A stretch of 64,000 bases of DNA from Neptunicella marina (GTDB taxonomy: Bacteria; Pseudomonadota; Gammaproteobacteria; Enterobacterales; Alteromonadaceae), in assembly GCF_014270035.1 (NCBI RefSeq), contig NZ_JACNEP010000001.1, positions 372,001-436,000 on the forward strand. Direction: 5' to 3'. Numbering within the stretch: the first letter of the stretch is position 1; every line of letters starts with the position of its first letter. This document shows, one piece after another, positions 5,975 to 40,487 of the stretch. The notes under the pieces are model-generated. The model ran no database searches. It had not been told where the DNA came from and worked only from the letters and a program-made list of their open reading frames with translations. Position numbers and translations under genes: made by a program.

Positions 5975-6302
5975 CCGCCGCCCTCAGATATTGATGAAGC
6001 AAAACACTCAGTCCACGGGGTTGATTTTGCCATTCGAGATACAGACGAAAGCCACCTTGCTGACTATTATTCTGAATGAATTGTTCAACCGTTAGTAAAC
6101 GGGATTCCAAACGTTGTTGAAAGGTTTTAAGCATACAGTCTATCAACAACAGCAAAACCACAAATATCGCTCCATAAGCTATCTGAAACCCATAAAGTAG
6201 TGCTGTTACAATCACAGCTACCACTTTAATGCTTAACGACAAGCGTTCATAACTTTCATATTGTTGTTGTAACAATAACCATTCCCGCTCGAGTCCTTTC
6301 AT
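5901..6302 (-). CDS. Small membrane protein, unknown function
   Basis: A 133-residue protein beginning MKGLEREWLLLQQQYES, with a hydrophobic stretch at about 24-57 that can form two close transmembrane helices, and another hydrophobic tail at 117-131 (VIYLLLLIFWGLVQVQW). No family was recognised. It starts 21 bases after the stop of the DMT transporter gene on the same strand, so the two may be cotranscribed. Its 3' end overlaps the convergent PQQ dehydrogenase gene by 74 bp, which is unusual but both frames look real. Confidence 0.62.
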   Translation of the reverse strand: MKGLEREWLLLQQQYESYERLSLSIKVVAVIVTALLYGFQIAYGAIFVVLLLLIDCMLKTFQQRLESRLLTVEQFIQNNSQQGGFRLYLEWQNQPRGLSVLLHQYLRAAVRPTQAVIYLLLLIFWGLVQVQWF

Positions 6303-6323
6303 TTTAATTCCCTGTTTGTAATC

Positions 6324-7262
6324 CTATTTGGCTTTTACACCCGGACGAGCTTTGCCCATCGATGCCAGAATAGATCCGAGCATAACCAACCCTGCGCCAA
6401 CATAAGCCAACAGATTAATGTCGCTTTGAGCAAAATACTGTGGCCAGAATTTTACCGCGAGTGACATACTAAAAATGGTCACTAATGGTGCTAAAGCGAT
6501 CACCGCACTCACTTTGGAGGCATGCCATACAGCCATGGCTTCCGTAAAAGCACCATAGCCAATAATGGTATTGGCACAACAGAACAACAGTGCCAAAAAT
6601 TGTAATTGATTCATCTCCAGCACTGTGAACAGGGTAGAAAAAGGCAATAACACCACAACGCCGGCTGTGTACATTATCAACGTCAGTTGTTTAGCATTCA
6701 TGCTTTTAAGCAAGCGTTTTTGCAATAAGCCATATACAGCCCAGGTAACAGCGGCAAGAATAATCATCAATACCCCCAGACTATAGCGGTTTACCGATGT
6801 TAACAATTCATCCAGTCGGTTATTAAAAAACAACAACATGCCACTAAACAAAATAAAAGCGCCCAGCCACTCCAGCCGGCTGAACTTTTCTTTATAAAGA
6901 AATATCCCCCCCAACATTACTAAAAACGGCGCCAGTTGAATAAGAACCTGCGCCGTTTCGGGATTCAGATAATCAAGCCCTTTTAAATAAAAGACATAGT
7001 TAACAATTAAACCCGCAGAGGCAATAAACAACCATCTGGCCTGCTGTCCACCCAACTGTGCTAAGGAAGGTAATTTGTTTTGGCGTAACAGCAACAAAAA
7101 CACAAATAAAGCCGCCACCATAAAGCGGTACCAGGTAATAGTGACCGGATCCATTTTTTGCAATGCGAGTTTTAGGAAAACCGGTAATACTCCCCACATG
7201 ATTGCGGTGGTTAACGCCAGAAAAAAGCCATACCAATGGCGCACTTCATATTGGTTTTGCAT
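6324..7262 (-). CDS. DMT-family transporter with two EamA domains
   Basis: An inner-membrane exporter of the drug/metabolite transporter superfamily. The 312 residues show ten hydrophobic helices as two EamA repeats (about 12-150 and 160-300). The first has the usual WGVLPVFLKLAL...RFMVAALFV pattern and the second AVTWAVYGLLQKRLL. Substrates of this family are metabolites such as amino acids or small toxic compounds and cannot be read from sequence. The ATG at 7262 gives a short cytosolic head before helix 1. It is followed after 21 bases by the small membrane protein gene. Confidence 0.88.
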   Translation of the reverse strand: MQNQYEVRHWYGFFLALTTAIMWGVLPVFLKLALQKMDPVTITWYRFMVAALFVFLLLLRQNKLPSLAQLGGQQARWLFIASAGLIVNYVFYLKGLDYLNPETAQVLIQLAPFLVMLGGIFLYKEKFSRLEWLGAFILFSGMLLFFNNRLDELLTSVNRYSLGVLMIILAAVTWAVYGLLQKRLLKSMNAKQLTLIMYTAGVVVLLPFSTLFTVLEMNQLQFLALLFCCANTIIGYGAFTEAMAVWHASKVSAVIALAPLVTIFSMSLAVKFWPQYFAQSDINLLAYVGAGLVMLGSILASMGKARPGVKAK

Positions 7263-7327
7263 CAGATAAATTCTACTTAAACAGGAAAGACAATGTGCTG
7301 CTGTCGCTTACCCGCCTTGAATGCCAC

Positions 7328-8167
7328 TTAGTGCTGGATTAAATCATCCAGGTCTTCAATTAAATCATCCAGTTCACGATTTAATTTCGCCACCTGTGCC
7401 GGGGTCAGGGTTTGATCAATATCTGCGACGAGGCGAGCGTACAACATCCTGTTTTGCTCTACCAGAGATATAAACGACTGATCCTGAAATTCTTCCGGAT
7501 GCCCAAGTAAATGTAAAAATTGTTGGTCAAAATCAGCCATTTTTTCACGTTGTAGCAACATCTCTTTGCATGCTTGCTGAAAAGCCTGCCGGTAAGCAAT
7601 CCAGGCTTTAAATGCAGAATTAAATTGTGGAGCTGCCTGTTGAATCATATCAAGCTGTTTGGCATTTAAATGACCGACAAACTCTTCGATATTTTCCCTG
7701 GTATCCTCTATCCGCTCTTCAAGCTTCTCGTTGGCAGATTTGTCCTGACGTCTTTTTATCGATTTGTTATTTTGCTTATCCAGTTCGGCAAATATGGAGT
7801 CAACCTGCTCATCGCTGATCAGATGTGCTAACGATACTAAATCAGGAATCACCCGGTCACGAAAACGATACCAATGCTCCCGGCCCTGCTCAAATTGCTC
7901 TAACCACTGCCCGGCGGTGAGTGGCCCCTGATATCGAAGTGACTTTAATGTTTCAAGTTGCTGCTTGTAACGAGCCAGCTCTTCTTTACGATGCCAGCTA
8001 AGCCATAGATTTAGCTTTTTATCCACCTGCTGTTTTTGCAGACGGCTTAAATCGATATAGTCATCAATGTACCAGTAACTTATCCAGTCCAGATTGTTGT
8101 AGGCGAATTTTGAACTACAGCCAGTTACTAAAAGCAACAACCCCAGTATCCCTGCCCAACGACGCAT
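7328..8167 (-). CDS. DUF6279-type lipoprotein
   Basis: The protein begins MRRWAGILGLLLLVTGCSSKF, a lipoprotein signal with lipobox VTGC, and continues with FAYNNLDWISYWYIDDYIDL, the hallmark of the DUF6279 lipoproteins common in Alteromonadales and Pseudomonadales. The rest is charged, helical and probably coiled (about 60-270). Function is unknown; it is expected at the inner face of the outer membrane or in the periplasm. A TTG three codons upstream (8176) is possible but has no spacing to the AAAAGG Shine-Dalgarno, while ATG 8167 has nine bases, so ATG is chosen. It is a single gene, divergent from pfkA. Confidence 0.85.
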   Translation of the reverse strand: MRRWAGILGLLLLVTGCSSKFAYNNLDWISYWYIDDYIDLSRLQKQQVDKKLNLWLSWHRKEELARYKQQLETLKSLRYQGPLTAGQWLEQFEQGREHWYRFRDRVIPDLVSLAHLISDEQVDSIFAELDKQNNKSIKRRQDKSANEKLEERIEDTRENIEEFVGHLNAKQLDMIQQAAPQFNSAFKAWIAYRQAFQQACKEMLLQREKMADFDQQFLHLLGHPEEFQDQSFISLVEQNRMLYARLVADIDQTLTPAQVAKLNRELDDLIEDLDDLIQH

Positions 8168-8333
8168 AAGAATCAACCTTTTGATGAATATATTTATTCA
8201 TCCTGCCGGGATTATGCTCTGGCTTCAATTATTTACTAACGCTTTGTTACAGAAAATGAATTTCCTTTGCTCTGTTAAAAAAATGTGGCATTTTTGACTT
8301 TTAATAAATTCATTCCAACGCAAGGAAAAGATT

Positions 8334-9338
8334 ATGAAGCGTATCGCAGTGTTAACATCAGGTGGTGATGCTCCGGGTATGAATGCATGTATCCGCGCCA
8401 TCGTATTAACTGCGCATCGTAATCAAATTGAGGTTATTGGTTATCGTCACGGATACAACGGGTTATTAAAACGCGAATATCAGCCACTTCACCCAGGTGA
8501 TGTGGTCAATATTATTCAGCGTGGCGGTACCATTTTACGCAGTGCCCGCTGCCCTGAATTTGTCAGCACCGAATCCGCAGAACGTGCAGCACAAAATCTT
8601 AATGACATGCACATCGATGCATTGCTGATAATTGGTGGCAATGGCTCATTTATGGGGGCTGAACACCTTGGCCGTCACTGGGACGGACAAATAATTACCC
8701 TGCCCGGTACTATCGATAATGACATTACCGGTACCGACGGCACTATCGGCTATTACACGGCGATAGATACGGCACTGGAAGCAATTGACAAAGTGCGTGA
8801 TACCGCTGATGCATTTGAGCGTATTTTTCTGATAGAGGTAATGGGCCGTCATGCCGGATTTATTGGCTTAAATGCGGCAATAGGCTCCGGAGCCGAACAA
8901 ATGTTGTTACCAGAATTGGTAGACGATGGTAACGCTATCGATTTAAAGCAAATCATGCGTCATGTAAAAGTCACTCGTGAAAAACGCGGTATGTGCAGTT
9001 ACATTATTGTCATTACAGAAAACCTTTATCCCGGCGGCGCAAACGCACTGGCGACCAAATTAACCGAAGAAATGAATGTAGATTGTAAACCCGTCATTCT
9101 GGGTTACATTCAACGTGGTGGTTCACCGGTCAGCATGGACAGGATCCTCGCGACAAAACTCGGGGCATATGCTGTTGAAGCCGCTCGTGATGGCAAGCAC
9201 CTGATAATGATTGGGGAACAAAACCACAATGTAGTTGAGATACCTCTGGAACAAACACGTAGCAGCAAAAAACCATTGGATCCATATTTAGTAGAAATCC
9301 AGCAGGACTTTTTTGATCTGGTTAAAAACCCGGTCTAA
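8334..9338 (+). CDS. pfkA: 6-phosphofructokinase, ATP-type, with D103N change
   Basis: Phosphorylates fructose 6-phosphate to the 1,6-bisphosphate in glycolysis. The 334 residues carry LTSGGDAPGMN (ATP loop), RGGTILRSAR, LPGTIDNDITGTD with catalytic Asp, VEVMGRHAG-like EVMGRHAG, and LGYIQRGGSP. A Gly after the Asn of GGNGS and the Gly before TIDND mark an ATP- rather than pyrophosphate-type enzyme. Odd point: the usual GGDGS reads GGNGS, so the Asp that helps hold Mg-ATP (Asp103 in E. coli) is Asn103 here. An AAGGA Shine-Dalgarno stands seven bases before the ATG. Its presence beside zwf, hexR and pyk shows that upper glycolysis is available, but no HexR site was seen here. Confidence 0.95.
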   Translation: MKRIAVLTSGGDAPGMNACIRAIVLTAHRNQIEVIGYRHGYNGLLKREYQPLHPGDVVNIIQRGGTILRSARCPEFVSTESAERAAQNLNDMHIDALLIIGGNGSFMGAEHLGRHWDGQIITLPGTIDNDITGTDGTIGYYTAIDTALEAIDKVRDTADAFERIFLIEVMGRHAGFIGLNAAIGSGAEQMLLPELVDDGNAIDLKQIMRHVKVTREKRGMCSYIIVITENLYPGGANALATKLTEEMNVDCKPVILGYIQRGGSPVSMDRILATKLGAYAVEAARDGKHLIMIGEQNHNVVEIPLEQTRSSKKPLDPYLVEIQQDFFDLVKNPV

Positions 9339-9349
9339 CACTGGGTTTT
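9325..9349 (+). terminator. Possible weak terminator of pfkA
   Basis: AAAACCC and GGGTTTT form a 7-bp stem around the pfkA stop codon with an 11-base loop. The T run is only four bases, so it is weak. Confidence 0.35.
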
Positions 9350-9359
9350 AGCCACTAAC

Positions 9360-9779
9360 TTAACCTGCCTTTTGCTGATATTGTTCCGATAATTCAGTTA
9401 ATACATGCATGGCTTTATAGGCCAGTTTTACCGGCACAAATACATGGTCATGGTAATAAGCTGCTACCACATTGGCACTAATATGATGAGCCGCTAAATG
9501 CTGGCTTATCGCAGCCGTTAATCCGACGGCCTCAAGTGAAGAATGCACTTTAAGCGTGATACACTTAAATACCCCCTCAAAATCCACGGCAAACCGCTCC
9601 GCCGTTTCACGCTTAACAATCAGGGTTATACCTTCTGGCTCCACAAAATGTGCCATAGGCTCCATGCCCAAAAAGTCACCGATTTGTCCATGCACAAAGG
9701 TACAAAATACAAATTCCTGCTCAGATAATACTGGCGATAAACTTGCCAGAATATGCTCTAAATCGGTTTCTCCAGCCAC
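9360..9779 (-). CDS. ACT-domain protein (ACT_3/ACT_7 type)
   Basis: A small cytosolic protein with two ACT-like halves: residues about 1-65 (GETDLEHILASLSPVL, then EGITLIVKRETAERF) and 66-130 (ITLKVHSSLEAVGLTAAIS, NVVAAYYHDHVFVP). That second motif is diagnostic of the ACT_7 family, thought to bind amino acids as regulators; no catalytic role is known. Start: ATG at 9809 is possible, but GTG at 9779 has a GGAG seven bases upstream and begins VAGETDL as relatives do, so GTG is preferred. It faces pfkA tail to tail and is 68 bases downstream of the dipeptidase gene on the same strand, so it may be read through from that operon. Confidence 0.85.
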   Translation of the reverse strand: MAGETDLEHILASLSPVLSEQEFVFCTFVHGQIGDFLGMEPMAHFVEPEGITLIVKRETAERFAVDFEGVFKCITLKVHSSLEAVGLTAAISQHLAAHHISANVVAAYYHDHVFVPVKLAYKAMHVLTELSEQYQQKAG

Positions 9780-9847
9780 TCTCGTTCTCCGTTCTGGCTC
9801 TGTTATCATTAGTGAAAATATGCGTTTAACTGCCTTGCGCGCCTCGA

Positions 9848-10558
9848 TTAATAAGCTAACACCGGAAAGTTATAATAATGTTTCGTTGTTTGCTGGCTAT
9901 CCTGTTCATGGGTGTAATGCCACCACTCCATGGGATAATTACTGAAATTGCCCTTTGCCATTAAATTTTTGAGGGTATAACGGTTAGCTCTTTGTTGAGC
10001 CGTAACCTCCGGGTTATCGGTATTGGACAGAGGATCAAACAAATCAAACTGCCCCCCCATATCCAGCAATTGCCACTGACCCTGTTCATTTTTCTGCGCA
10101 AGGCTTAAGTCTATGGTGTAACCACGACTATGGCCGGACTTTTCCGCGATATAGTCACCCAGCAAAACGCCTTTATCGAGATTAGGATAATATTCGGTTT
10201 TGGTTTTAGTATCCTCAATGTCATTCACCCAACGCACAAAATGATCTACCGCGCGCTGTGGTCGGTAACAATCAAATAACACCAGCTTTAACCCCTGAGT
10301 CTTTGCTGCTTGTGCCACCAATTGCAATGACGTTGCCGCGGTCGTTTTCAAAATACATTGCCGTGCCTGATAACCATCAACCACACTGCCAACAAAATTA
10401 TTACGGGTGGCATAACGCATTTGATAAATTGCATTGGGGATCAGTTTATTAACACTGGAAAAATCAGCAGGTAGTGACGGCTGTTCAGCCCGGAGCAAAG
10501 GACTGGCGAAAATAACTGCCAGTGCAACTAATGCTCTTGATTGTAAGAAGCTGGTAAT
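9848..10558 (-). CDS. D-alanyl-D-alanine dipeptidase (VanX/DdpX, M15D)
   Basis: A zinc dipeptidase that splits D-Ala-D-Ala. The family motifs are present: FDCYRPQRAVDHF, SGHSRGYTIDLSL (zinc His and Asp) and EWWHYTH (catalytic Glu and last zinc His). Start: in frame upstream of the mature part lies TSFLQSRALVALAVIFASPLL, a fine signal peptide ending LRA before EQP, but it has no ATG, GTG or TTG. An AAGGA sits eight bases before ATT at 10558, so a rare ATT start is proposed; the only canonical start, TTG at 10498, would cut the signal off. The start overlaps the upstream amidohydrolase gene by 31 bp. It ends a four-gene run with a two-component system. Confidence 0.85.
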   Translation of the reverse strand: MTSFLQSRALVALAVIFASPLLRAEQPSLPADFSSVNKLIPNAIYQMRYATRNNFVGSVVDGYQARQCILKTTAATSLQLVAQAAKTQGLKLVLFDCYRPQRAVDHFVRWVNDIEDTKTKTEYYPNLDKGVLLGDYIAEKSGHSRGYTIDLSLAQKNEQGQWQLLDMGGQFDLFDPLSNTDNPEVTAQQRANRYTLKNLMAKGNFSNYPMEWWHYTHEQDSQQTTKHYYNFPVLAY

Positions 10559-12072
10559 AATAATTGTCCTTGTCTGTTTAAATTAACGTTACCTTGCTCA
10601 ATAGCAAACTTACCATTAACCATCACCCATTCAAATCCGGTGGCTAACTGATGAGGATGCTGATAGTCAGCATGACTTTTTATCTGATTAAGGTCAAACA
10701 ACAACAGGTCAGCGCTGTATCCTTCGCGAATCAATCCTCGTTTCGGTAACCCGATGATCTGCGCAGCCAATCCTGTCATTTTATAGATGGCTTTTTCAAT
10801 GGTTAACAGACCCTGTTGTTTAACATATTGCTGCAAAACTTTTGCAAAACTGCCATAGCCCCGCGGATGATACATAGTCGGGCTGCCATCGGAACCAATT
10901 GCCACCAAACGGCTTTTCAGCAATTCTTCCTGAAGTGCATCGTCCATAATAAAATAAGCGGCAGAGGCACCTTCAGGCCCCAGATCATCAATTAATACAT
11001 CCTGAAAAGGCTTTTCCAGCAAGGTGGCGACTTCTTCCAGCGTTCTTCCCTTATATTTGCCGGTCCCCATTAAGGTGCTGCCCGGCCCTCCGCGGGATAA
11101 CACTTTATTTAATAAATATTGCTCCAGCTCTTTACGACGGGTCTGCACTGCCCGCTGCATCATGCCATCGGTTTTTGCCCATTGCGGAAATAATATGGCT
11201 AAACCGGTATAACTTGCCGTATAGGGGTAGATATCCGCTGTAATATGAATACGTTCGTTATTGTATTGCTCCAGCAGCGCCACGATGTCCTTACCACGCT
11301 CAGCGCCCTGGCCATAAACAGATTTAATATGCGAAATATGTACTTTGGCAAACTTGCCCTGACGCGCCAGTTCATGAATTGAGGTAAAAAGTTTGTCATC
11401 GTCCTCACTACGCATATGACTCATGATCAGCCGGTGTTTTTTACCAACAATTTTGGCCAGCGCGATGAGCTCTGATTCGGGAGCATGGATTGCAGGCACA
11501 TATTCGAGACCGGTTGATAAACCAAAATGCGTATCAAGTGCGTTGTTTAACACACTTTCCATTGCTGAGATTTGCTTTTCAGATACGTTGGAAACGTTTC
11601 CTATTCCAACATAGCGGCGCAGACTACCATGACCAACCAGCATGCCAATATTAACTGCAACACCCTGTGGATCCCACTGCTGTTGCCAGCTCTGGATACC
11701 ACTAATAGCCGGGCTAAAACCATCCTGTCCCAGTACAACGCTGGTAACCCCCATGCTAATAAAGTTAGTAAAAGCACCATCTTTAACCGGATTGCCATGA
11801 GCATGTAAATCAATAAACCCAGGGGTTAAATATTTACCCGCCGCATCAATAGTTTGCGTAGCGATAATATTGTGTTTAGCGGCGTCTCCAACAAAGCTGA
11901 CCTGCCCTCCCGTCACCGCAACATCACCAATAAAAGCAGGTCTGCCACTACCATCAATCACCCTTGCGTGGGTAAACAAAACATCAACGACACTGGCTCG
12001 CGCAGCAAAACCTGCAAGCAATAGGCTCACCGCAAGAAAAAACTGATAAAAGCGTCTACAGGATGTTGTCAT
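10528..12072 (-). CDS. N-acyl-D-amino-acid deacylase-like amidohydrolase, exported
   Basis: A metal-dependent hydrolase of the D-aminoacylase family, removing acyl groups from D-amino acids or acting on similar amides. The body starts ARVIDGSGRPAFIGDVAV and has the metal motif GFIDLHAHGNPV, a later SHMRSEDD, HISHIKSV and IGSDGSP with the last metal Asp. Start: GTG at 12111 overlaps the regulator gene by eight bases, but ATG at 12072 begins MTTSCRRFYQFFLAVSLLLAG, a clear signal peptide, and is preferred. The enzyme would then be periplasmic, like the VanX-like dipeptidase just downstream. Related exported deacylases are often annotated as D-glutamate deacylase or dihydroorotase-like. Exact substrate is unknown. 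Confidence 0.85.
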   Translation of the reverse strand: MTTSCRRFYQFFLAVSLLLAGFAARASVVDVLFTHARVIDGSGRPAFIGDVAVTGGQVSFVGDAAKHNIIATQTIDAAGKYLTPGFIDLHAHGNPVKDGAFTNFISMGVTSVVLGQDGFSPAISGIQSWQQQWDPQGVAVNIGMLVGHGSLRRYVGIGNVSNVSEKQISAMESVLNNALDTHFGLSTGLEYVPAIHAPESELIALAKIVGKKHRLIMSHMRSEDDDKLFTSIHELARQGKFAKVHISHIKSVYGQGAERGKDIVALLEQYNNERIHITADIYPYTASYTGLAILFPQWAKTDGMMQRAVQTRRKELEQYLLNKVLSRGGPGSTLMGTGKYKGRTLEEVATLLEKPFQDVLIDDLGPEGASAAYFIMDDALQEELLKSRLVAIGSDGSPTMYHPRGYGSFAKVLQQYVKQQGLLTIEKAIYKMTGLAAQIIGLPKRGLIREGYSADLLLFDLNQIKSHADYQHPHQLATGFEWVMVNGKFAIEQGNVNLNRQGQLLLPASYNQEH

Positions 12073-12103
12073 AACCGCCCAACTACATTGATGACCGAAT
12101 GTG

Positions 12104-12928
12104 TTATACACCTACCATGGTTTTCACTTTATCCCTATTACTACGACTGACTTTAAGCTCGCTACCACAGGTTAAAATAAGGTGATACTCACCACTCACA
12201 TGACTTACCATTTTGGTCACAAACCGAATATTGACAATAGCTGAACGGTGCACACGCACAAAATGTCTGGGGTCGAGTAATTCTTCGAGCTCCTTCATGG
12301 TACTGCGCATAATATGGGTACCATTCACCGAATGCACACACATATAATCTCCTGCAGCGTCTATCCATTTAATATCAGATAACGCCACCCGGGTAACCTC
12401 ATTACCATCTTTAACCGCCAGTACATCCGGATAAGGATTAATATTAATGTTTTTACCTTCGGCCAGGTCCTGCAATATGGTTTCGCAATCTTCACCTGTG
12501 AAATTGGCCACCAAAGAAGCCAGATGACGCTTTTGTTGTTCGCCTTCGCGCAACTGATAATGTTGCATCACTTTATTAATAGCCTGACCTAAACGCTCGT
12601 TGTCCACCGGCTTAAGCACATAGTCCAGCGCATGCACATCAAAGGCTTTAATCGCGTAGGTATCGTAAGCCGTGACAAAAATAATCAGGGGAAGAGGATG
12701 ATGATTTTGCGCCAGATACTGAATCAGCTGAAAGCCATTCATACCCGGCATTTGGATATCAAGAAAAACCAAATCAGGTTTTAACGCGACTATTTTATTG
12801 GCTGCATCGTTGCCATTATGACATTCACCCACCAATTGAATCTGTTCAAAATCCTGTAAACGAACCGATAATCCCCGCCTGGCCAGCGGCTCATCATCTA
12901 CTATCAGGGTTTTAATTTTCCTTTCCAC
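12104..12928 (-). CDS. LytTR-family response regulator
   Basis: A 274-residue LytR/AlgR-type DNA-binding response regulator. The receiver domain (about 5-120) has the acidic pair DDEP, phospho-acceptor Asp in LVFLDIQMPGMNGF, the Thr of FVTAYD and the Lys of YVLKPVD. The LytTR domain (about 168-270) has IDAAGDYMCVHS and HFVRVHRSAIVNI. Its start lies 17 bases inside the upstream histidine kinase gene, a sign of translational coupling and of a cognate pair. The deacylase and dipeptidase genes directly downstream are natural targets or partners. Confidence 0.94.
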   Translation of the reverse strand: MERKIKTLIVDDEPLARRGLSVRLQDFEQIQLVGECHNGNDAANKIVALKPDLVFLDIQMPGMNGFQLIQYLAQNHHPLPLIIFVTAYDTYAIKAFDVHALDYVLKPVDNERLGQAINKVMQHYQLREGEQQKRHLASLVANFTGEDCETILQDLAEGKNININPYPDVLAVKDGNEVTRVALSDIKWIDAAGDYMCVHSVNGTHIMRSTMKELEELLDPRHFVRVHRSAIVNIRFVTKMVSHVSGEYHLILTCGSELKVSRSNRDKVKTMVGV

Positions 12929-13994
12929 GTTTTTTTTCCTGAAATGGTAGCCTTATGCGGACTTTAACACCCGTGGGCTGATTTTTAGCAATATCAAATG
13001 AGTAATTGTCTCCATACAATGACTGCAAACGCTCCTTAATATTTGGCAAACCGACGCCTTTGCTACGGTACATAGAGGATTCATCCAAATTCACACCGGG
13101 GCCGTTGTCTGCGACTTCAATCAATACATCTTTGCCAAATGCGTTTGCTGATATCCAAATAGTACCACCTTGTTCAGATGCAGCAATGGCATATTTAATC
13201 GAGTTTTCAATTAATGGTTGCAATAACATACTGGGAACTAACGCATTTTCCACTTCAGGATCGATTGCAAAGTGCACTGTTAAACGGTCGTCGAAGCGTA
13301 CTTTTTCGATATCCAGATACAAACTTTCCACCTGAACTTCCTGCTTTAATGTCACCGTTTTAATCGGATCTTTGTCCAGTGAATAACGCAAAAAGTCACT
13401 TAATCGACTAACCATTTTATTGGCAGTATCGTTTTCTTTAACCAAAATCAGAGTAGATATGGCGTTTAAGGTATTAAACAAGAAGTGAGGATTTAACTGG
13501 TAGCGTAGCATTTTCAAATGAGCCTGATGTGCCATGCTCGACGCCTTTAATACATTACGTTTTTCTGCCTGCAGCATCTGGTAATACTTGATACCAAAAT
13601 ACAGCCCACTCCAGCTGAAAATGATATAAAACGAAGCCAGGCTATTGGTGAAATAATAAATCCAGTCTTCGGGCACATAACCAAATTTATAAATTTCCCA
13701 ATAATGCAGGTTTTTAATCACCGTCCATACCAGTGCAATTAAATAGGAAGCCAGTAACATGCTGCCAATTAATGCCAGTGGTTGAAAATCCCAGATACGA
13801 CGATAGAGATAACGCAGAGGGATAGTCAGTAACCAGCCCGCAATACCATTAAGCACAATAACCAAAACAAACACAGCACGCATATCGTGCAGAAACGATC
13901 CCAGATAATACACCAGCACAAAACCGGCCCAGCCACCGGTATGCAGGATCCAGAAAAAACGTTCCTTATCTTCAAACCACTTATTGATCGTCAC
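12912..13994 (-). CDS. LytS-type sensor histidine kinase
   Basis: A 360-residue membrane kinase of the His_kinase (PF06580) family. Four hydrophobic helices fill residues about 15-150 without a large outer domain. The H-box reads LRYQLNPHFLFNTLNAIST (phospho-His in NPHFLFN), and the ATPase domain has LQPLIENSIKYA (N-box), VADNGPGV and GVGLPNIKERL. The start is GTG at 13994 (MTINKWFEDKERFFW). The stop overlaps the response regulator start by 17 bases. With no sensory domain outside the membrane helices, it probably senses a membrane or cell-wall cue, but the signal is unknown. Confidence 0.93.
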   Translation of the reverse strand: MTINKWFEDKERFFWILHTGGWAGFVLVYYLGSFLHDMRAVFVLVIVLNGIAGWLLTIPLRYLYRRIWDFQPLALIGSMLLASYLIALVWTVIKNLHYWEIYKFGYVPEDWIYYFTNSLASFYIIFSWSGLYFGIKYYQMLQAEKRNVLKASSMAHQAHLKMLRYQLNPHFLFNTLNAISTLILVKENDTANKMVSRLSDFLRYSLDKDPIKTVTLKQEVQVESLYLDIEKVRFDDRLTVHFAIDPEVENALVPSMLLQPLIENSIKYAIAASEQGGTIWISANAFGKDVLIEVADNGPGVNLDESSMYRSKGVGLPNIKERLQSLYGDNYSFDIAKNQPTGVKVRIRLPFQEKKRGKEN

Positions 13995-14104
13995 GTGTTT
14001 ATCCGCTTAGAAATGTTAACGAGTGATTATATCAAGCGGGCCGTGAGGTAATCACGGCCACTGGTCTTAAGTCGGTGTTGACTTGTCGCAGTACTAAATA
14101 CGAA

Positions 14105-14569
14105 TTAATACTGGATATTTAATTTTTTGAGAAAACCGGAAATAACCCATACCGGTCCAATAAGCAGGAATTGTACATCCTTAAAGAAAGAGGGTTTTTT
14201 ACCTTCAATAGCATGACCAATAAACTGCAGGATCCACATCACGACAAATAAAATCAGGCTAAATTGCCAAACAGAAACATCCATATATTCCAGCCATTTA
14301 ATGCCCCAGAATACCAAAATACTCAGAGCTGTCATGGCGGCGCCCACCGGCCCCGATAATTTAAAGTAATAAAAAAGTACCGGAATAATTGCAACATGCG
14401 CAAAGGTAAAGTCGTACTTTTCCATAATGGGTAGTACCGGAATACAGTAAAGCAACGCAACGGTGACAAAATAAATCGCCGGCACCGCAATGTTGTGGAT
14501 TTTTTTGTTGGTAGGGTTTTGATGACTCTCTGAATATTCCTGCATTAATCGGTCAATATTTCGCATCAT
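14105..14569 (-). CDS. Mpo1/YGL010w-like (DUF962) membrane protein
   Basis: A 154-residue membrane protein with four hydrophobic segments. The family signature residues are there: ESHQNPTNKKIHNIAVP near the N-terminus and QFIGHAIEGKKPSFF near the C-terminus, which supply conserved His and Glu. The yeast relative Mpo1 is an iron-dependent dioxygenase in fatty-acid alpha-oxidation; a similar lipid role in bacteria is only inference. ATG codons stand at 14569 and 14566. It follows the PilZ gene by 39 bases on the same strand and could share its transcript. Confidence 0.88.
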   Translation of the reverse strand: MMRNIDRLMQEYSESHQNPTNKKIHNIAVPAIYFVTVALLYCIPVLPIMEKYDFTFAHVAIIPVLFYYFKLSGPVGAAMTALSILVFWGIKWLEYMDVSVWQFSLILFVVMWILQFIGHAIEGKKPSFFKDVQFLLIGPVWVISGFLKKLNIQY

Positions 14570-14608
14570 GCTCTCCGAAATGGCCTGTGGCCTGTCATTA
14601 TTGTTTTA

Positions 14609-15292
14609 TCAGATGGCGACCAGCAAATCGTCGAGTATTTCAGACACAGAATCTGCTGATTGTTCAAACTTTATACCATAATAAAAGCTCAGGCCATCAG
14701 TTCTGCTATTTACAATCATCGCTTTAATCATATGCGGCTCTTTACGATTACTTTCGATATGGACAAAGATTTCGCCGTTCTCCAGTTTTTGTTCGCTGTG
14801 ACCTATCTTCTTTACACTAATACGGCAACCTGTCGAGGACATATCAACAATCACACCCTCTTTTAAATATTTTTCATTGTCGCCGTTAAAAATTTTGGCA
14901 GGAATGCTGGTTGAGGCGCGTTTAGTAGAGCGCAAACCATGCAGCTGAATATTGCCTGGAAATTGTAAAAAGATCATATGCACAGGTTTGGTAAGCACAA
15001 ACATAACCTTACTCTGAAATGCTACAATTTCACCGGTATCTTCTTCAAGGATATAACGCACAACAATGTTCGCATCGTTAAAAATCATGTCACGCAAATT
15101 TCCCCATTTGCTCTCATCAGGAAATTTTATCATCAACATTTTATTACCATCACGGCCAATAAATTCAGAACGCACTCTTTTAGCGGCGTTAGGGCCTTTT
15201 AACTGCATATCAACGGCCATGCCCGGATGCATCGCATGCAGCTTTTTTAAATCTTCTAATGTCAGACGTTGAGTTTGCTTAAGGATTGCCAT
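14609..15292 (-). CDS. PilZ-domain protein with YcgR-like N-terminal domain
   Basis: A 227-residue cytosolic protein that probably binds cyclic di-GMP. Residues about 25-115 form a beta-rich YcgR-like domain. Residues about 120-225 form the PilZ domain, with RSTKRAS as the arginine-rich binding loop and VDMSSTGCRIS as the D-x-S-x-x-G motif. Such proteins often brake flagellar motors or adjust adhesion. The start is ATG 15292 (MAILKQTQRLTLEDL). It leads a short run with the DUF962 gene. No flagellar genes are in the window. Confidence 0.87.
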   Translation of the reverse strand: MAILKQTQRLTLEDLKKLHAMHPGMAVDMQLKGPNAAKRVRSEFIGRDGNKMLMIKFPDESKWGNLRDMIFNDANIVVRYILEEDTGEIVAFQSKVMFVLTKPVHMIFLQFPGNIQLHGLRSTKRASTSIPAKIFNGDNEKYLKEGVIVDMSSTGCRISVKKIGHSEQKLENGEIFVHIESNRKEPHMIKAMIVNSRTDGLSFYYGIKFEQSADSVSEILDDLLVAI

Positions 15293-27587: not shown

Positions 27588-28349
27588 TTACACGCGGGTA
27601 CCACCATCAAGCTCTAACGTACGGGCGGTGAAATAATCATTTTCAAAAATGAATTTGGCCGCATGACCTAACTCTTCCACCTGCGCGAGTCGGCGCAAAG
27701 GTACGCTTTGCAGGAATTTTTCTTTCATTTCCGGACGCATCTGCGCAGCCATGGCGGTATCAACCAATCCCGGCGCGATACAACCGGTACGAATACCAAA
27801 ACGCGCCAGTTCTTTACCCCAGGTCACTGTCATGGTCGCAACCGCCGCTTTAGAGGCTGAATAATTACTCTGCCCCATATTACCGCCACGCGACACTGAG
27901 GAAATATTGATGATCACGCCCTGACTGCCAGTCTCAATCATCGCAGCCGCCGCTTCACGCCCGCACAGAAAAGTGCCGGTAACATTGACGTTAAGCACAG
28001 ACTGGAACTGGTCAGCCGACATTTTGCCTACCACTTTTCCGTCCTTTACTTTGAGTAACATGCCATCACGCATAATACCGGCACTGTTGATCAAACCATT
28101 TAAACGGCCAAAACGTTTAACAATCTCCGCAAAACCCTGTTCAACCGCCATTTCGTTGGTAACATCCATCACAAAATATTCAGCCTGAATGCCTTTTTGC
28201 TGTAATTCGCTGACGGCGTTTTGTAGCGCATCTTCCTGCAAATCGATTAACGCAATATGCGCGCCTTCGTTTGCAAGGGCTTCAGCCATTGCTCTTCCTA
28301 ATCCCTGCGCAGCACCTGTTACTGCGATTACGTTATCTTTAAGTTGCAT
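27588..28349 (-). CDS. SDR-family 3-hydroxyacyl-CoA/ketoacyl dehydrogenase-like
   Basis: A 253-residue short-chain dehydrogenase. The nucleotide site is TGAAQGLGRAMA, the catalytic set is Ser in NISSVSRGG and Tyr/Lys in YSASKAA, and the NAG-like motif is NSAGIM. It is the last gene of the valine operon, three bases after mmsB. In related operons such an SDR is thought to serve a 3-hydroxyacyl-CoA or 3-hydroxyisobutyrate-type oxidation in branched-chain or fatty acid breakdown. The substrate is not decided by the sequence. Confidence 0.85.
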   Translation of the reverse strand: MQLKDNVIAVTGAAQGLGRAMAEALANEGAHIALIDLQEDALQNAVSELQQKGIQAEYFVMDVTNEMAVEQGFAEIVKRFGRLNGLINSAGIMRDGMLLKVKDGKVVGKMSADQFQSVLNVNVTGTFLCGREAAAAMIETGSQGVIINISSVSRGGNMGQSNYSASKAAVATMTVTWGKELARFGIRTGCIAPGLVDTAMAAQMRPEMKEKFLQSVPLRRLAQVEELGHAAKFIFENDYFTARTLELDGGTRV

Positions 28350-28352
28350 GGG

Positions 28353-29249
28353 TTAATCCTGTTTTGCGCTATACATTTTAAAAATACTGGAAAAATCTAA
28401 CTGACCGTTGCCCGCCAGACTGTGCAATTTATAAAGGCTTTGCGCCATCGATCCCATAGGAATGGTAGACTGGCTTTTGTTAGCCGTATCAACCGCTAAA
28501 CCTAAGTCTTTTTTCATTAAATCCACCATAAATCCACCCTGATAACCTTTGGATGATGGCACATTCTCCAACACATCCGGGCATGGGTTATACAGCTCCA
28601 GTGTCCAGTTACGACCAGAGCTTTGCAGCATAATGTCACTTAATACTTTAGGATCAAGGCCATTATCAATACCCATTTGCAATGCTTCTGCGGTACCTGC
28701 CATTAACACCGATAACAACATATTGTTGCAGATTTTGGCAATTTGCCCCGCCCCGGTTTCACCGGCGTGGAATATGTTTTTACCCATCGCCGATAATACA
28801 GGGTGAGCGCGCGCTACATTCTCAGCATCACCACCCACAATAAAGGTCAGGGTGCCGGCAGTTGCACCGGCGGTACCACCAGAGACAGGTGCATCAATAA
28901 AGGCAATCCCCTGCTCTTCTAATGCCTTTCCCACTTCCTGTGCACTAGCCGCATCAATGGTTGAGCAATCAATCACCAGGGTATTTTTAGCTAATTGATG
29001 AATTAATCCATCATCAGCTAAATACAGGCTTTTCACGTGTTTACCAGCAGGTAGCATCGAAATAACAACATCCGCATCTTTGGCGGCATCGCTCGCACTT
29101 GCACTGGCCAACGCGCCTTGTTTAACCAGAGTTTCAACACTGCTGGCTACTAAATCAAAGACTTTGACGCTAAATCCGGCTTTGACCAGATTGGCCGCCA
29201 TGGGGCCACCCATATTACCTAAGCCGATAAATGCAATGGTTTGACTCAT
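28353..29249 (-). CDS. mmsB: 3-hydroxyisobutyrate dehydrogenase
   Basis: Oxidises 3-hydroxyisobutyrate to methylmalonate semialdehyde with NAD+ in valine catabolism. Rossmann motif FIGLGNMGGPMAANL, substrate motif DAPVSGGTAGATAGT, catalytic Lys in GQIAKICNNMLL and the C-terminal DLMKKDLGLA are all those of the family. 298 residues is standard. It lies between the hydrolase that makes its substrate (11 bases upstream) and the SDR gene, and its product is used by mmsA, the first gene of the same operon. Confidence 0.95.
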   Translation of the reverse strand: MSQTIAFIGLGNMGGPMAANLVKAGFSVKVFDLVASSVETLVKQGALASASASDAAKDADVVISMLPAGKHVKSLYLADDGLIHQLAKNTLVIDCSTIDAASAQEVGKALEEQGIAFIDAPVSGGTAGATAGTLTFIVGGDAENVARAHPVLSAMGKNIFHAGETGAGQIAKICNNMLLSVLMAGTAEALQMGIDNGLDPKVLSDIMLQSSGRNWTLELYNPCPDVLENVPSSKGYQGGFMVDLMKKDLGLAVDTANKSQSTIPMGSMAQSLYKLHSLAGNGQLDFSSIFKMYSAKQD

Positions 29250-29259
29250 TCTAAATCTC

Positions 29260-30387
29260 CTACTTTCCTATGCCTTTTAACGGATGCGCTTCATCTGTCC
29301 ATGGCGACGTAAAACAGTGTTCAACCAGTTCTGCAGGCACGTCTGCTACCGAGGCATATTGCCAATTTGGATTCTGATCTTTATCGATAAGCAAGGCGCG
29401 CACACCTTCCTGAAACTCGCCAGTGGATGCACAACGGCACGACATAATTAGTTCCATACGGAAACATTCCGCCAGTGTTTTCGACGCACCGCGTTTTAAT
29501 TGCTCAAATACCAAACAGGCAGTTAAGGCAGAGCCATTGTTTAACGTCTGCTGCGCGCGAGCTAACCACTTATCTTCACCGCAATCATGATTCAAAATAG
29601 CCTGATAAATCTGAGCAATATTGTCGCTGGCGGTTAATTGCTGAATTAATGCCTCGTGAGGTTTGACATTAGCCGCCGGCAACTGAGCTAAATGTTGCTG
29701 ATGGTACTGCTGACACAGATCAGTCAGTTTTTGATGATTCAGACTGACCGTTTCACCAAAAGGCAATGTCAGCAACTGTTCGATAAAACCGGCTTTTTGC
29801 TCATGGGGAATAAAATGGTCTGCCAGTTTGACATGCAAGGCATCCATCGCATTAATACTGGCGCCGGTTAATCCCAAAAACAAACCAACACCCGGTGCCA
29901 TTTTATTTAAAAACCAGCTCCCCCCCACATCAGGATATAAACCGATGCTAATTTCCGGCATGGCAATACGCGAAGACTCAGTAACAATGCGATGACTGCC
30001 ACCGCACAGCAGCCCTAAACCGCCACCCATCACAATACCATTGCCCCAGACTATAAAAGGTTTGTGGAAGGTATGAATCAAATAATCGAGGCGATATTCT
30101 TCACTGAAAAAGACTTCCACCGCTTCTGGTGTGACTTTTGGTGCTTTAACCATGGCATCGTGCATTGCCACCACATCACCACCGGCACAAAAGGCTTTAT
30201 CGCCTTCACCATCAAGCAAAACGGCCGCAATAGTGCTGTCGTTTTGCCATGCAAGTAGTTGTGGCATTAACGCCTGAATCATATCCAGATCCAGCGCATT
30301 GAGTGAACGCACTTTATTTAACCTGGCATAACCAATTTTTTTACCGTTATGGGCAGATAACTCCTCAAAAATGACTTTATCTGTCAT
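29260..30387 (-). CDS. 3-hydroxyisobutyryl-CoA hydrolase
   Basis: A crotonase-fold thioesterase freeing 3-hydroxyisobutyrate from its CoA ester in valine breakdown. The long 375-residue form, GGGLGLLCGGSHRI, and PEISIGLYPDVGGSWFL with the conserved Glu and Asp separate HIBCH from ordinary enoyl-CoA hydratases. The C-terminal region has SCRCASTGEFQEGVRALLIDK. It is nine bases after the acyl-CoA dehydrogenase gene. No separate methacrylyl-CoA hydratase gene is in the operon, so that step must be encoded elsewhere or be done by a general hydratase. Confidence 0.92.
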   Translation of the reverse strand: MTDKVIFEELSAHNGKKIGYARLNKVRSLNALDLDMIQALMPQLLAWQNDSTIAAVLLDGEGDKAFCAGGDVVAMHDAMVKAPKVTPEAVEVFFSEEYRLDYLIHTFHKPFIVWGNGIVMGGGLGLLCGGSHRIVTESSRIAMPEISIGLYPDVGGSWFLNKMAPGVGLFLGLTGASINAMDALHVKLADHFIPHEQKAGFIEQLLTLPFGETVSLNHQKLTDLCQQYHQQHLAQLPAANVKPHEALIQQLTASDNIAQIYQAILNHDCGEDKWLARAQQTLNNGSALTACLVFEQLKRGASKTLAECFRMELIMSCRCASTGEFQEGVRALLIDKDQNPNWQYASVADVPAELVEHCFTSPWTDEAHPLKGIGK

Positions 30388-30396
30388 ATGTTCTCC

Positions 30397-31554
30397 TTAA
30401 AGCAGGTCACCGGCATCGGCAGATAGAATTCTTCGACCGATAATCAGTCGCATAATTTCATTAGTGCCTTCTAAAATCTGGTGAACGCGCACATCACGCA
30501 TATGGCGCTCCAGTGGATACTCTTTGATATAACCGTAGCCACCGTGCAATTGCAGCGCTTCATTACACACTTTAAACCCGACATCGGTAGCAAAACGTTT
30601 TGCCATCGCACAATACGCAGTGGCTTCAGGATCGTTATTATCCAGTTTAAACGCCGCTAAACGCACCATTTGGCGTGCCGCAACCAGTTCAGTCGCCATA
30701 TCGGCTAATTTAAATTGCAGTGCCTGAAATGCTGCTAAAGGCTTGCCAAACTGCTCACGTTCCTGCATGTAATTTTTGGCCGTGTTTAACGCTTGCTGCG
30801 CTGTACCAATTGAGCAGGTGGCGATATTAATGCGGCCGCCGTCCAGGCCTTTCATGGCAAAGGTAAAACCCTGGCCTTCTTCACCTAATAAATGATCAAC
30901 AGGAATACGCACATCTTCAAAGGTGACCAAACGCGTAGGCTGAGCGTTCCAGCCCATTTTCTCTTCGGCTTTACCGTAAATAATACCTTTGGCATCGGCA
31001 GGCACGGCTACCGCAGAAATGCCTTTTGGCCCGGCTTCGCCGGTTCTTACCATCACCACTAAAATTTCGGTTTCACCGGCACCCGAGATAAACATTTTCG
31101 AGCCGTTAATCACATACTCATCACCATCTTTAACCGCGGTAGTGCGCAGAGATGCCGCATCCGAACCTGAACCCGGCTCAGTCAGGCAATAACTCGCCAG
31201 TTTGGCACCGGCCACTAAATCATCACACCAGCTATTTTTGAGCGATTCTGTGCCCCAGCTGGCAATCATCCAGGTGGCCATATTATGAATGGTCATCATG
31301 GCGGTGGTGGTGGTACACCCCATGGATAATTGTTCAAAAATAATCGAGGAATCTAAACGCGACAGCCCTAAACCACCGGCATCTTCAGGCGCGTATAATC
31401 CGCAAAAACCCAGCTCCCCGGCTTTTTGAATCACGTCTTTAGGGAAAATATGTTCCCTGTCCCATAATGCCGCATTGGGCGCCAGTTCCTGCTCGGCAAA
31501 CTGACGAGCGGTATCGGCAAAGGCAATTTGATCTTCGGTTAAATTAAAATTCAT
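30397..31554 (-). CDS. Isobutyryl-CoA dehydrogenase-like acyl-CoA dehydrogenase
   Basis: An FAD-dependent acyl-CoA dehydrogenase of 385 residues. Family motifs are YCLTEPGSGSDAASL, FISGAGE and the C-terminal QLHGGYGYIKEYPLERHMRDVR. The catalytic Glu is in ILEGTNEI, the usual MCAD/SCAD position, unlike the leucine-pathway enzyme in this window. Place in the valine operon between mmsA and the HIBYL-CoA hydrolase points to isobutyryl-CoA as substrate, made into methacrylyl-CoA. Substrate choice is inferred from context. Confidence 0.9.
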   Translation of the reverse strand: MNFNLTEDQIAFADTARQFAEQELAPNAALWDREHIFPKDVIQKAGELGFCGLYAPEDAGGLGLSRLDSSIIFEQLSMGCTTTTAMMTIHNMATWMIASWGTESLKNSWCDDLVAGAKLASYCLTEPGSGSDAASLRTTAVKDGDEYVINGSKMFISGAGETEILVVMVRTGEAGPKGISAVAVPADAKGIIYGKAEEKMGWNAQPTRLVTFEDVRIPVDHLLGEEGQGFTFAMKGLDGGRINIATCSIGTAQQALNTAKNYMQEREQFGKPLAAFQALQFKLADMATELVAARQMVRLAAFKLDNNDPEATAYCAMAKRFATDVGFKVCNEALQLHGGYGYIKEYPLERHMRDVRVHQILEGTNEIMRLIIGRRILSADAGDLL

Positions 31555-31563
31555 AACAGCGAC

Positions 31564-33054
31564 TTACCCTAAATTAATCGTCAAATTTGGACCTGAAGGA
31601 ATGTCATCCTCAAACCAGCGCGATGTAACAGTTTTGGTTTCAGTATAGAAGCGTACAGCTTGCTTGCCGTAAGCATGTAAATCACCATAGAAAGAATTTT
31701 TCCAGCCAGTGAAGGAAAAGAAAGGCAATGGCACAGGAATCGGCACGTTAACACCCACTTGTCCTACTTCAACTTCGTGCTGATATTTGCGTGCAGCGGC
31801 ACCATTGGCTGTAAAGATAGAGGTACCGTTACCAAATGGATTGCGGTTTACCAGTGCGATGGCTTCTTCTAATGTATCTACACAGACACAACACAGTACA
31901 GGACCAAAAATTTCCTGGGTGTAAATATCCATATCAGGTTTCACATCAGTGAACACCGTCGGACCAACCCAGTTACCCTGCTCGTAGCCGGCAACGCTAA
32001 AATCAGAACCATCAACAATACAATTTGCTCCCTGATCTTTACCCGATTGAATCAAACTTAAAACACGCGCTTTGGCTTGCGGGCTAATTAACGGACCAAA
32101 ACCGGCTTTTTCATCATTCCATAAACCCGGTTTTACTTTGGCGATTTCGCTGGCCAGTTCGTCAATCCACTGTTTGGAGTCACCCACAAAGACTGCTACC
32201 GAAATCGCCATACAGCGCTGACCGGCTGCACCAACACTGGCACCAACGAGGTTATTAATCACTTGTTGTTTGTTGGCATCCGGCATGATTACCGAGTGAT
32301 TTTTTGCCCCGGCAAAACATTGCGCACGTTTTAAATGATCGGTCGCTGTCTTATAAATGTGCTGACCAACAGGCACAGAGCCGACAAAGGATACGGCTTT
32401 AATATCATCATGGGTCAGTAAGGTATTCACCTGATCTTTGCCGCCATGTACCACGTTTAATACCCCTTTAGGGCAACCGGCTTCTTCGAACAATTCAGCT
32501 AAACGGGTGGGCGTAAGCGGATCCTGCTCAGAGGGTTTCAGTACAAAGGTATTGCCGCAGGCAATCGCCAGAGGGAACATCCACAATGGAATCATTGCAG
32601 GGAAATTAAAGGGTGTAATACCTGCGCACACACCTAAAGGCTGAATATAACTGCTGGTATCAATGCCCCGCGCGACATTTTCAACCGTTTCACCCATCAT
32701 CAGAGCTGGAATATTGGCGGCTTGCTCCACTACCTCGATACCACGCCACACATCGCCTTTAGCATCAGCAAACGTTTTACCGGTTTCTTTGGCCAGGATT
32801 TCCGCAATTTCATCGTGATGTTGTTTTAATAAATGCTGATAACGCATCATCAGTCGCGCACGCTCAGGCACCGGCACTTCACGCCAGTCTGCAAATGCAG
32901 ACTTAGCAGAGGCAATTGCCTGTTGCATTTCATCATCAGTGGCACAAGGTGCACGAGCAATAACTTCGTTATTCGCCGGATTGGTAACGTCAATAAATTG
33001 ATCGGCTTTCGATGACACAAACTTGCCATCAATAAATAATGGAACTGTATTCAT
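31564..33054 (-). CDS. mmsA: Methylmalonate-semialdehyde dehydrogenase, CoA-acylating
   Basis: Converts methylmalonate semialdehyde, CoA and NAD+ to propionyl-CoA and CO2, ending valine catabolism. The aldehyde dehydrogenase fold has the catalytic Cys in [14 protein letters not shown], the [15 protein letters not shown] motif of MmsA, and [13 protein letters not shown] 33054 ([13 protein letters not shown]) is chosen; a longer frame to 33114 has an unlikely N-terminus, and an AGAG ribosome site precedes the ATG. It is the first gene of a five-gene operon. A palindrome like the LiuR box stands upstream at 33136-33151. Confidence 0.95.
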
Positions 33055-33135
33055 AGGGTACTCTCTTGGCTGTGACTCAGTGTTTTGGCCTGAGGAACGA
33101 CATTTAATTTTCATAACATTAACAAAGTTTTCACT

Positions 33136-36838: not shown

Positions 36839-38008
36839 ATGAATGCTCCGTACCCTACTTTAAACTTTGATCTTGGCGAAGACGTGGATATGTTACGTGA
36901 CCACGTGTATGCCTTCGCACAGGGTGAAATCGCCCCTCTGGCGGAAAAAGCCGACGAACAAAACAGCTTCCCCAATGAACTTTGGCCTAAAATGGGCGAA
37001 ATGGGTTTGTTAGGTGTGACCGTGGATGAAGAATTCGGTGGTGCCAATATGGGTTATTTAGCTCATGTGGTGGCGATGGAAGAAATCAGCCGCGCCTCTG
37101 CCGGTATCGCACTTAGCTACGGTGCGCACTCTAATTTATGTGTGAACCAGATTTACCGTAACGGTAACGATGCACAACGTGCCAGGTACCTGCCAAAACT
37201 GATCAGCGGTGAACACATTGGTGCACTGGCAATGAGTGAACCTAACGCCGGTTCCGATGTAGTTTCCATGAAACTGACCGCTAAAAAAGACGGCGATCAC
37301 TATGTGCTAAACGGCAACAAAATGTGGATCACCAATGGTCCTGATGCACATACCTTTGTTATTTACGCCAAAACCGATGTGAGTGCCGGTCATAAAGGCA
37401 TCAGTGCTTTTATCGTTGAACGTGGCACGCCAGGTTTCTCACAGGCGCAAAAACTCGACAAATTAGGCATGCGCTCATCCAATACCTGTGAACTGGTATT
37501 TGAAGATTGCCGTGTACCGGCTGAAAATCTGATGGGTAACGAAGGCGACGGCGTTAAAATTTTAATGAGCGGTCTGGATTATGAGCGTCTGGTTCTGGCG
37601 GGTGGCCCACTGGGCATTATGCAGGCCTGTATGGATTTAGTGGTGCCTTATATTCACGACCGTAAACAGTTTGGTCAGTCCATCGGTGAATTCCAGTTAA
37701 TTCAGGGCAAAGTGGCCGATATGTACACCCAGATGAATGCCGCCCGTGCTTACGTTTACACTGTAGCGAAAGCCTGTGACCGTGGTGAAACCACCCGTAA
37801 AGATGCCGCAGGCGCGATTTTATATGCCGCAGAACTGGCAACCAAAATGGCGCTGGATGCCATCCAGTTATTAGGGGGTAACGGTTATATCAACGAATTC
37901 CCGGCCGGACGTTTATTGCGTGATGCCAAATTATATGAAATTGGCGCCGGTACCTCAGAAATTCGCCGTATGTTAATCGGTCGCGAATTATTCAAAGAAT
38001 CGGCTTAA
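36839..38008 (+). CDS. liuA: Isovaleryl-CoA dehydrogenase
   Basis: An FAD-dependent acyl-CoA dehydrogenase turning isovaleryl-CoA into 3-methylcrotonyl-CoA in leucine catabolism. It has [13 protein letters not shown] and WITNGPDA. The catalytic Glu is not at the usual C-terminal place, which reads IGAGTSEI, but in the helix [17 protein letters not shown], the trait that marks isovaleryl-CoA dehydrogenases. 389 residues is standard. TTGAGGATAA supplies the ribosome site. It is first after liuR. A hairpin follows before liuB. Confidence 0.96.
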
Positions 38009-38029
38009 TCCGCCGCCGGACAACCTAAT

Positions 38030-38051
38030 AAGCCGGCCTTTGCCGGCTTTG
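38030..38051 (+). terminator. Hairpin between liuA and liuB
   Basis: AAGCCGGC - CTTT - GCCGGCTT is a perfect 8-bp stem followed by only TTG. It lies inside the operon and may act as an attenuator or an mRNA processing or stabilising site. Confidence 0.55.
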
Positions 38052-38069
38052 TCAGAATAGGAGCACCAG

Positions 38070-39677: not shown

Positions 39678-39688
39678 GGAAGCGAATT

Positions 39689-40483: not shown

Positions 40484-40487
40484 TCCA

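Follow-up and report, generated by a model that had tools for sequence, protein, structure and literature searches.

A conserved LytTR two-component system in Neptunicella marina and a probable lineage-specific join to two putatively exported enzymes predicted to act on D-residues

The window examined here is a stretch of 64,000 nt from Neptunicella marina (NZ_JACNEP010000001.1, positions 372,001-436,000, assembly GCF_014270035.1), and all coordinates are relative to it. Open reading frames (ORFs) and Pfam matches place four minus-strand genes at 9848-13994, in the order sensor histidine kinase, LytTR response regulator, amidohydrolase (AH), and a dipeptidase-like protein of family M15 (DP). 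The explanation that we consider probable is that a conserved, probably self-activating LytTR system gained a downstream cassette of two exported enzymes in this lineage. We infer the insertion, the operon, the autoregulation, the substrates, and the periplasmic site of the enzymes from sequence comparison.

Gene order in relatives and the regulator-phosphofructokinase junction

Gene distribution was counted in 59 genomes, namely that of N. marina (G000) and 58 relatives; below, G numbers denote genomes and L numbers denote loci. The regulator was matched in 35 of the 59 genomes, and regulator regions were compared for the 33 relatives with a regulator identity of at least 48%, using stretches of 15-18 kb each. 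The kinase adjoins the regulator in all 33 stretches, and no match for AH or DP occurs among the genes called in them. Thus, the four-gene order, whose conservation the initial annotation had suggested as a check, is kept in 0/33 relatives carrying the kinase-regulator pair, and in the relatives searched the enzymes lie elsewhere or are absent, which is the outcome that the annotation itself had named as speaking against it. Beyond the N. marina genome, an AH orthologue (45%-53% identity) was found in G006 and G037 only, with more distant relatives (31%-34% identity) in G014 and G020, and a DP match was found in eight of the 58 relatives. At the limits used, 56/58 relatives therefore lack a close AH match and 50/58 lack a DP match. 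The coordinates of the relatives' AH and DP genes place them on a separate contig from the regulator or no nearer to it than 0.3 Mb.

The most direct comparison is with G001, a genome of the same genus that shares the flanks of the window (EamA, 6-phosphofructokinase (PFK), regulator, kinase, Mpo1-like, PilZ, and M61 genes). In G001 the PFK-regulator gap measures just 70 bp and contains no AH, DP, or ACT-domain gene. In the window, these three genes occupy the gap, and a relative of the ACT gene (48%) sits elsewhere in the G001 genome. PFK is present in 18 of the 33 regulator stretches and adjoins the regulator in 12 of these; a 131-aa ORF lies between the two genes in L156, and other genes lie there in five loci (L147, L150, L158, L162, and L170), including, according to Pfam, an RND pump with its adaptor, a GGDEF protein, LysR and DJ-1 proteins, and TonB receptors. 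Because five loci carry other genes at this position, the regulator-PFK junction looks like a site of gene uptake. The parsimonious reading is that the enzyme stretch was inserted behind the regulator, and insertion is preferred here to repeated loss.

A mobile element was considered as the vehicle and was rejected. Only short repeat pairs occur in the region (9300-12200), the window contains no tRNA, there is no step in base composition, and no mobile-element protein was found among the eight proteins of the stretch that the Pfam scan covered, although the search for mobile genes went no further than these eight.

Predicted operator and probable shared transcript

Upstream of the kinase, a direct repeat of GAY-type half-sites with an exact 21-bp period was found in 18 of 34 loci (the 33 relatives and the window), the window being one of the 18. 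Control periods of 12-20 and 22-35 were matched in 0-3 loci, and the opposite strand at period 21 was matched in none. A -10-like hexamer lies 28-30 nt downstream of the repeat in 18/18 loci (searched range 20-39 nt). An excerpt of PMC4847170 describes LytTR sites as two repeats of 9-11 nt that are separated by 11-13 nt, and the 21-bp period is compatible with this geometry. The pattern was counted directly, since coding sequence from the neighboring upstream gene and from the first part of the kinase dominated an unguided motif search. A LytTR half-site consensus from the literature matches four of the 34 upstream regions (L158, L160, L166, and L176) and has no match in the window. Because the repeat and the -10-like box precede the kinase, the pair is probably autoregulated through the predicted operator, and the enzymes would thereby ride on its transcript. 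As such, AH and DP probably share the kinase-regulator transcript, and common control of the four genes, as originally proposed, appears likely in view of the shared strand, the short regulator-AH gap, and the predicted autoregulated promoter.

Several observations weigh against this account of an inserted and co-transcribed cassette. The base composition of AH, DP, and the ACT gene is like that of the neighboring DNA, and the stretch is not bordered by long repeats that would betray an insertion. The half-site pattern was defined after inspection of upstream regions from related sequences, it is permissive, with 5 matches found across the window where 3.4 are expected, and 16 of the 34 loci do not match the repeat. 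Weak terminator-like hairpins lie within the 3' end of the regulator (12193-12181) and the start of AH (12030-12014), with terminator-like matches occurring near the chance level (8 found versus 5.9 expected). Finally, AH and DP are direct neighbors in none of the other 22 loci of the AH clade described below, indicating that the pairing itself is not conserved.

Table 1. Genes and predicted sites in and around the four-gene run (window coordinates)
Feature	Position	Strand	Basis or occurrence
Sensor histidine kinase with membrane N-terminal half; His_kinase (PF06580) and HATPase_c	12912-13994	-	Pfam; orthologue beside regulator in 33/33 relatives
LytTR response regulator; Response_reg and LytTR	12104-12928	-	Pfam
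Amidohydrolase AH (Amidohydro_3), D-aminoacylase superfamily, probably exported	10528-12072; ORF open to GTG at 12111	-	Pfam, structure matches
M15 D-Ala-D-Ala dipeptidase-like DP (Peptidase_M15)	9848-10558 with proposed ATT start; 9848-10498 with TTG start	-	Pfam
Predicted regulator operator, half-sites CGACAA and AGACCA, 21-bp period	14062-14088	-	Repeat in 18/34 loci
Predicted -10 box TATAAT, 30 nt past the repeat	14026-14031	-	Hexamer in 18/18 repeat loci
AAGGA ribosome-binding-like site for DP, within the AH gene	10567-10571	-	Sequence
ACT_3/ACT_7 domain protein, same inserted stretch	9360-9809	-	Pfam
6-Phosphofructokinase (PFK), convergent, border of inserted stretch	8334-9338	+	Pfam

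Elsewhere in the window, Pfam matches at 27588-33114 (minus strand) and 36839-42479 (plus strand) include acyl-CoA dehydrogenase, enoyl-CoA hydratase, 3-hydroxyisobutyrate-dehydrogenase-like, aldehyde dehydrogenase, and biotin-carboxylase genes, and these appear to form two acyl-CoA degradation runs of the branched-chain type.

The two enzymes and their predicted substrates

The initial annotation described tight packing and signal peptides for both enzymes, and this holds in part. The 17-bp overlap of kinase and regulator is correct (Table 1). Taken from the GTG codon at 12111, the AH ORF overlaps the regulator by 8 bp; translation more likely begins 31 bp downstream of the regulator, with the ATG at 12072, which opens a segment that by eye resembles a signal peptide. 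For DP, both the overlap with AH (31 bp) and the signal peptide exist only with an ATT start. With ATG, GTG, or TTG, the gene begins at 10498, which is 29 bp past the AH stop, and carries no signal peptide. DP seems to start at the third ATT (codon 10558-10556): this codon follows AAGGA at a distance of 8 nt, and none of the ATG, GTG, or TTG codons would include a signal peptide. DP N-termini are longer in 8/8 relatives, most of them with a signal-like or lipoprotein-like segment by eye.

DP belongs to family M15, as it scores 142.5 bits against PF01427 (cut-off 27) and its catalytic residues are conserved. Arg79, His123, Asp130, Glu191, and His194 (aligned positions) are invariant in 7/7 sequences and are kept in comparison with 1r44; we take these to be the active-site residues of VanX. 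DP thus shares its family and active-site positions with the VanX/DdpX D-Ala-D-Ala dipeptidases, but it scores below the NCBIfam equivalog cut-off for VanX (188.2 versus 320 bits), is probably exported, and is accompanied by neither a ligase nor a dehydrogenase in the scan of eight proteins from the stretch. A vancomycin-resistance-like VanRS/VanX system was likewise rejected, as no VanH/VanA-like partner is found among these eight, the VanX cut-off is missed, and the regulator is of LytTR type.

AH matches D-aminoacylase structures across residues 40-517, in three stretches. In alignments with 1rjp, presumably the D-aminoacylase of Alcaligenes faecalis, and with 9g5m, AH retains the HxH motif, the two His positions, and the Asp. 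AH differs from 1rjp in its probable export and in residue 130 (GTG-ORF numbering), an Asp that replaces the metal-binding Cys of known D-aminoacylases. Further solved relatives are N-acyl-D-Glu deacylase (3gip) and PpOngB (9kb1). D-aminoacylase relatives reportedly split L-Xaa-D-Xaa dipeptides. The Asp at the Cys position occurs in the window AH and in 22/22 loci of its clade (the GQDG clade: L017-L036, L057, and L098; 20 of them in two separate comparisons, L031 and L032 in one), again with the His and Asp positions kept. These loci are not independent, because L019 and the G037 locus, on contigs of equal length, appear to be one contig, and L024, L030, and L057 look closely related. In an alignment of 80 amidohydrolases, Cys, Asp, and other residues all occur at this position, and since Asp is also found there in more distant amidohydrolases, we regard Asp130 as a variant rather than a singularity. 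AH consequently does not show the full signature of subtype V, in which a Cys/His/His metal site accompanies a catalytic Asp. An excerpt of PMC12017989 gives the Cys/His/His metal site as the definition of that subtype.

The genes that surround some relatives of both enzymes point to cell-wall peptides. The DP gene of relatives adjoins an NhaC-type transporter (L178-L181), NlpC/P60 proteins (L178 and L183), an epimerase-like protein of the enolase family (L178), or an amidase/beta-lactamase-like protein (L180). In the AH clade, which extends to other phyla, L017 adjoins NlpC/P60 and the same epimerase-like family, NhaC-type transporters stand beside L019, L021, and L023, M23 peptidases stand beside L020 and L022, and an AbgT transporter stands beside L098. 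Profiles built from DP neighborhoods only were matched within four genes of AH in 7/22 clade loci, compared with 2/59 control loci drawn from more distant amidohydrolases (L037-L096 minus L057; Fisher p 0.0012), the families having been checked with Pfam. A smaller locus set gave 7/19 versus 1/51 (p 2.8e-4), so that the full set weakens the statistic and leaves the conclusion unchanged, and profiles seeded partly from AH-clade neighbors gave a biased 9/19 versus 3/51. Several of these matches carry qualifications. L017 is included for its NlpC/P60 and epimerase-like neighbors, as its "YkuD" profile match is transglutaminase-like according to Pfam and was left uncounted; the L036 matches are weak (33-37 bits), and Pfam calls both proteins Beta-lactamase; and the AH of L035 is split into two ORFs. 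Among the controls, L092 matched by an epimerase-like gene only, and the L081 amidohydrolase stands between an epimerase-like gene and a beta-lactamase-M15 fusion. L081 (7692-15063) is a planctomycete amidohydrolase locus outside the clade, and its fusion neighbor is 1169 aa long.

Co-occurrence across the genome set follows the same direction. With the N. marina genome excluded, both AH-bearing relatives have DP (2/2, p 0.017) together with NlpC/P60 and the epimerase-like gene, and DP co-occurs with NlpC/P60 (5/8, p 0.007). The NlpC/P60 and epimerase-like genes are neighbors by coordinates in 9/9 genomes having both. On another contig, N. marina itself carries a cluster (L215, G000:C41:248000-264000, at 5997-15284) of a DUF819 transporter, NlpC/P60, the epimerase-like gene, a sodium symporter, an N-acetylglucosamine-kinase-like gene (below cut-off), MurQ, and NamZ, and its NhaC-type transporter lies on a third contig. 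A span of about 21 kb at G000:C41:199000-236000 (L217 and L218) encodes two more D-aminoacylase-like proteins along with another epimerase-like one, which suggests a larger D-amino-acid region.

The arrangement in one relative resembles a ykf-type murein-peptide cluster, in which YkfC is the NlpC/P60 protein according to an excerpt of PMC2954226. In G006 (L178), the neighbors of DP include an SH3b1-NlpC/P60 gene and the epimerase-like gene, and N. marina has that pair in L215, whereas the AH and DP of the window stand apart from it, behind the two-component system. Given the relatives' neighborhoods, the co-occurrence, and the scavenging genes of the host, murein-peptide scavenging is a plausible best guess for AH and DP.

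Some of the evidence pulls away from murein. DP and the epimerase-like gene do not co-occur significantly (3/8, p 0.07, own genome excluded), the co-occurrence counts are small and come from related genomes, and 15 of the 22 AH-clade loci show no DP-derived family within four genes. The last count also speaks for the alternative that the enzymes use free N-acyl-D-amino acids or other environmental D-amino compounds, with the murein neighbors forming part of a broader D-amino-acid set. Solved AH relatives named D-aminoacylase and N-acyl-D-glutamate deacylase fit this alternative, and the superfamily includes the GlcNAc1A deacetylase (PMC12017989, excerpt), suggesting that substrates vary widely. 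Set against it are the AH-DP linkage in the window and the occurrence of murein endopeptidases, or of transporters from DP-neighbor families, beside AH in several phyla, and we consider this alternative less likely.

Control of the enzymes and the signal of the kinase

A second alternative is that AH and DP are passengers, transcribed from a promoter of their own and without regulatory tie to the two-component system. Such a view would accommodate the varied genes found at the regulator-PFK junction of five of the 18 relatives and the ORF in L156. However, just 31 bp separate the regulator stop from the AH ATG, no promoter- or terminator-like site was scored in this gap, and promoter-like sites in 9000-14700 are at most as frequent as expected by chance (10 found versus 13.5 expected). 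We therefore judge an independent passenger unlikely and retain co-transcription with the LytTR system.

Regarding the pair itself, the label "LytS/LytTR" used in the initial annotation is accurate for the regulator, whose receiver and LytTR domains score 91.1 and 76.7 bits, both above the Pfam cut-offs. It is too specific for the kinase, for which the Pfam scan gave only His_kinase and HATPase_c and did not report the 5TMR-LYT sensor domain of strict LytS kinases. A kinase beside a LytTR regulator is also the arrangement of YpdA/YpdB and BtsS/BtsR in Escherichia coli, systems of LytS/LytTR type, and BtsR is the best NCBIfam match of the window regulator, below cut-off (167.6 versus 246). YpdA and BtsS presumably carry the 5TMR-LYT domain that was not reported for the window kinase. 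Direct-repeat binding is known for YpdB (PMC4847170, excerpt) and predicted here, with a half-site sequence unlike the YpdB motif. Literature searches returned no description of a LytTR and histidine kinase system in Alteromonas and nothing joining a D-Ala-D-Ala dipeptidase with LytTR; in a search combining three of D-aminoacylase, dipeptidase, operon, and two-component, D-aminoacylase was absent among the matches listed.

The sensor half of the kinase is 73% identical to its G001 counterpart, and its mean identity to the others within the 12 closest systems is 58.7%, against 54%-68% for the other sensors; for the kinase part the mean is 68.0%. Judged by these values, sensor divergence is ordinary and the kinase shows no sign of re-specialization. 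Because the same sensor occurs in genomes without AH or DP beside it, the pair is unlikely to be a dedicated sensor for AH/DP substrates. The proposal of a dedicated recycling system, in which D-amino acids or wall fragments would be the signal of the kinase and the regulator would induce AH and DP, draws on the gene order, the short gaps, enzymes of a fitting kind, and the general knowledge that nearby genes are often under a regulator's control, but it is very improbable in view of the pair standing without the enzymes in all 33 relatives, the rarity of both enzymes among the 58 genomes, and the ordinary sensor. What stays plausible from the initial annotation is action of the enzymes on wall fragments, in keeping with part of the relatives' neighborhoods and with co-occurrence; its sensing component is not supported.

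Other genes recur near the pair. Pyruvate kinase is found near the two-component system in 11/33 loci (L097, L155, L158, L160, L164, L166, L167, L169, L170, L172, and L175), PFK in 18, an RpiR-type regulator in seven, and glucose-6-phosphate dehydrogenase in six (one member per family named by Pfam). It is possible that the signal of the pair is tied to central carbon metabolism. An RND-pump-like gene also lies near the pair in 9/33 loci (L147, L150, L157, L158, L160, L166, L168, L171, and L176; one cluster, one member Pfam-named).

In the explanation that we favor, transcription would begin upstream of the kinase at the predicted promoter, with the phosphorylated regulator binding the 21-bp-period direct repeat there, and the transcript would run through the regulator into AH and DP. 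AH would then cut an acyl or aminoacyl group off a D-residue, for example in L-Xaa-D-Xaa pieces of murein peptide, DP would hydrolyze D-Ala-D-Ala or other dipeptides of D,D- or similar type, and the products would feed murein-scavenging genes elsewhere in the genome. The kinase signal would be the same as in relatives lacking the enzymes, which would have been captured by the system rather than sensed for. More tentatively, the GQDG clade may consist of undescribed exported L-Xaa-D-Xaa murein-peptide hydrolases with an Asp-containing metal site, which would scavenge together with the M15 dipeptidase, NlpC/P60, the epimerase, and the NhaC-type transporter, the autoregulated LytTR system having been turned into their switch with its sensor unchanged.

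When enzyme genes are packed against a two-component system as in an operon, the system does not necessarily sense the substrates of those enzymes, and the relatives point to a lineage-specific join here. The analysis also predicts the operator and promoter of a LytTR system that is common across the family and for which our literature searches found no description, and it offers the AH clade as candidate murein-peptide enzymes.

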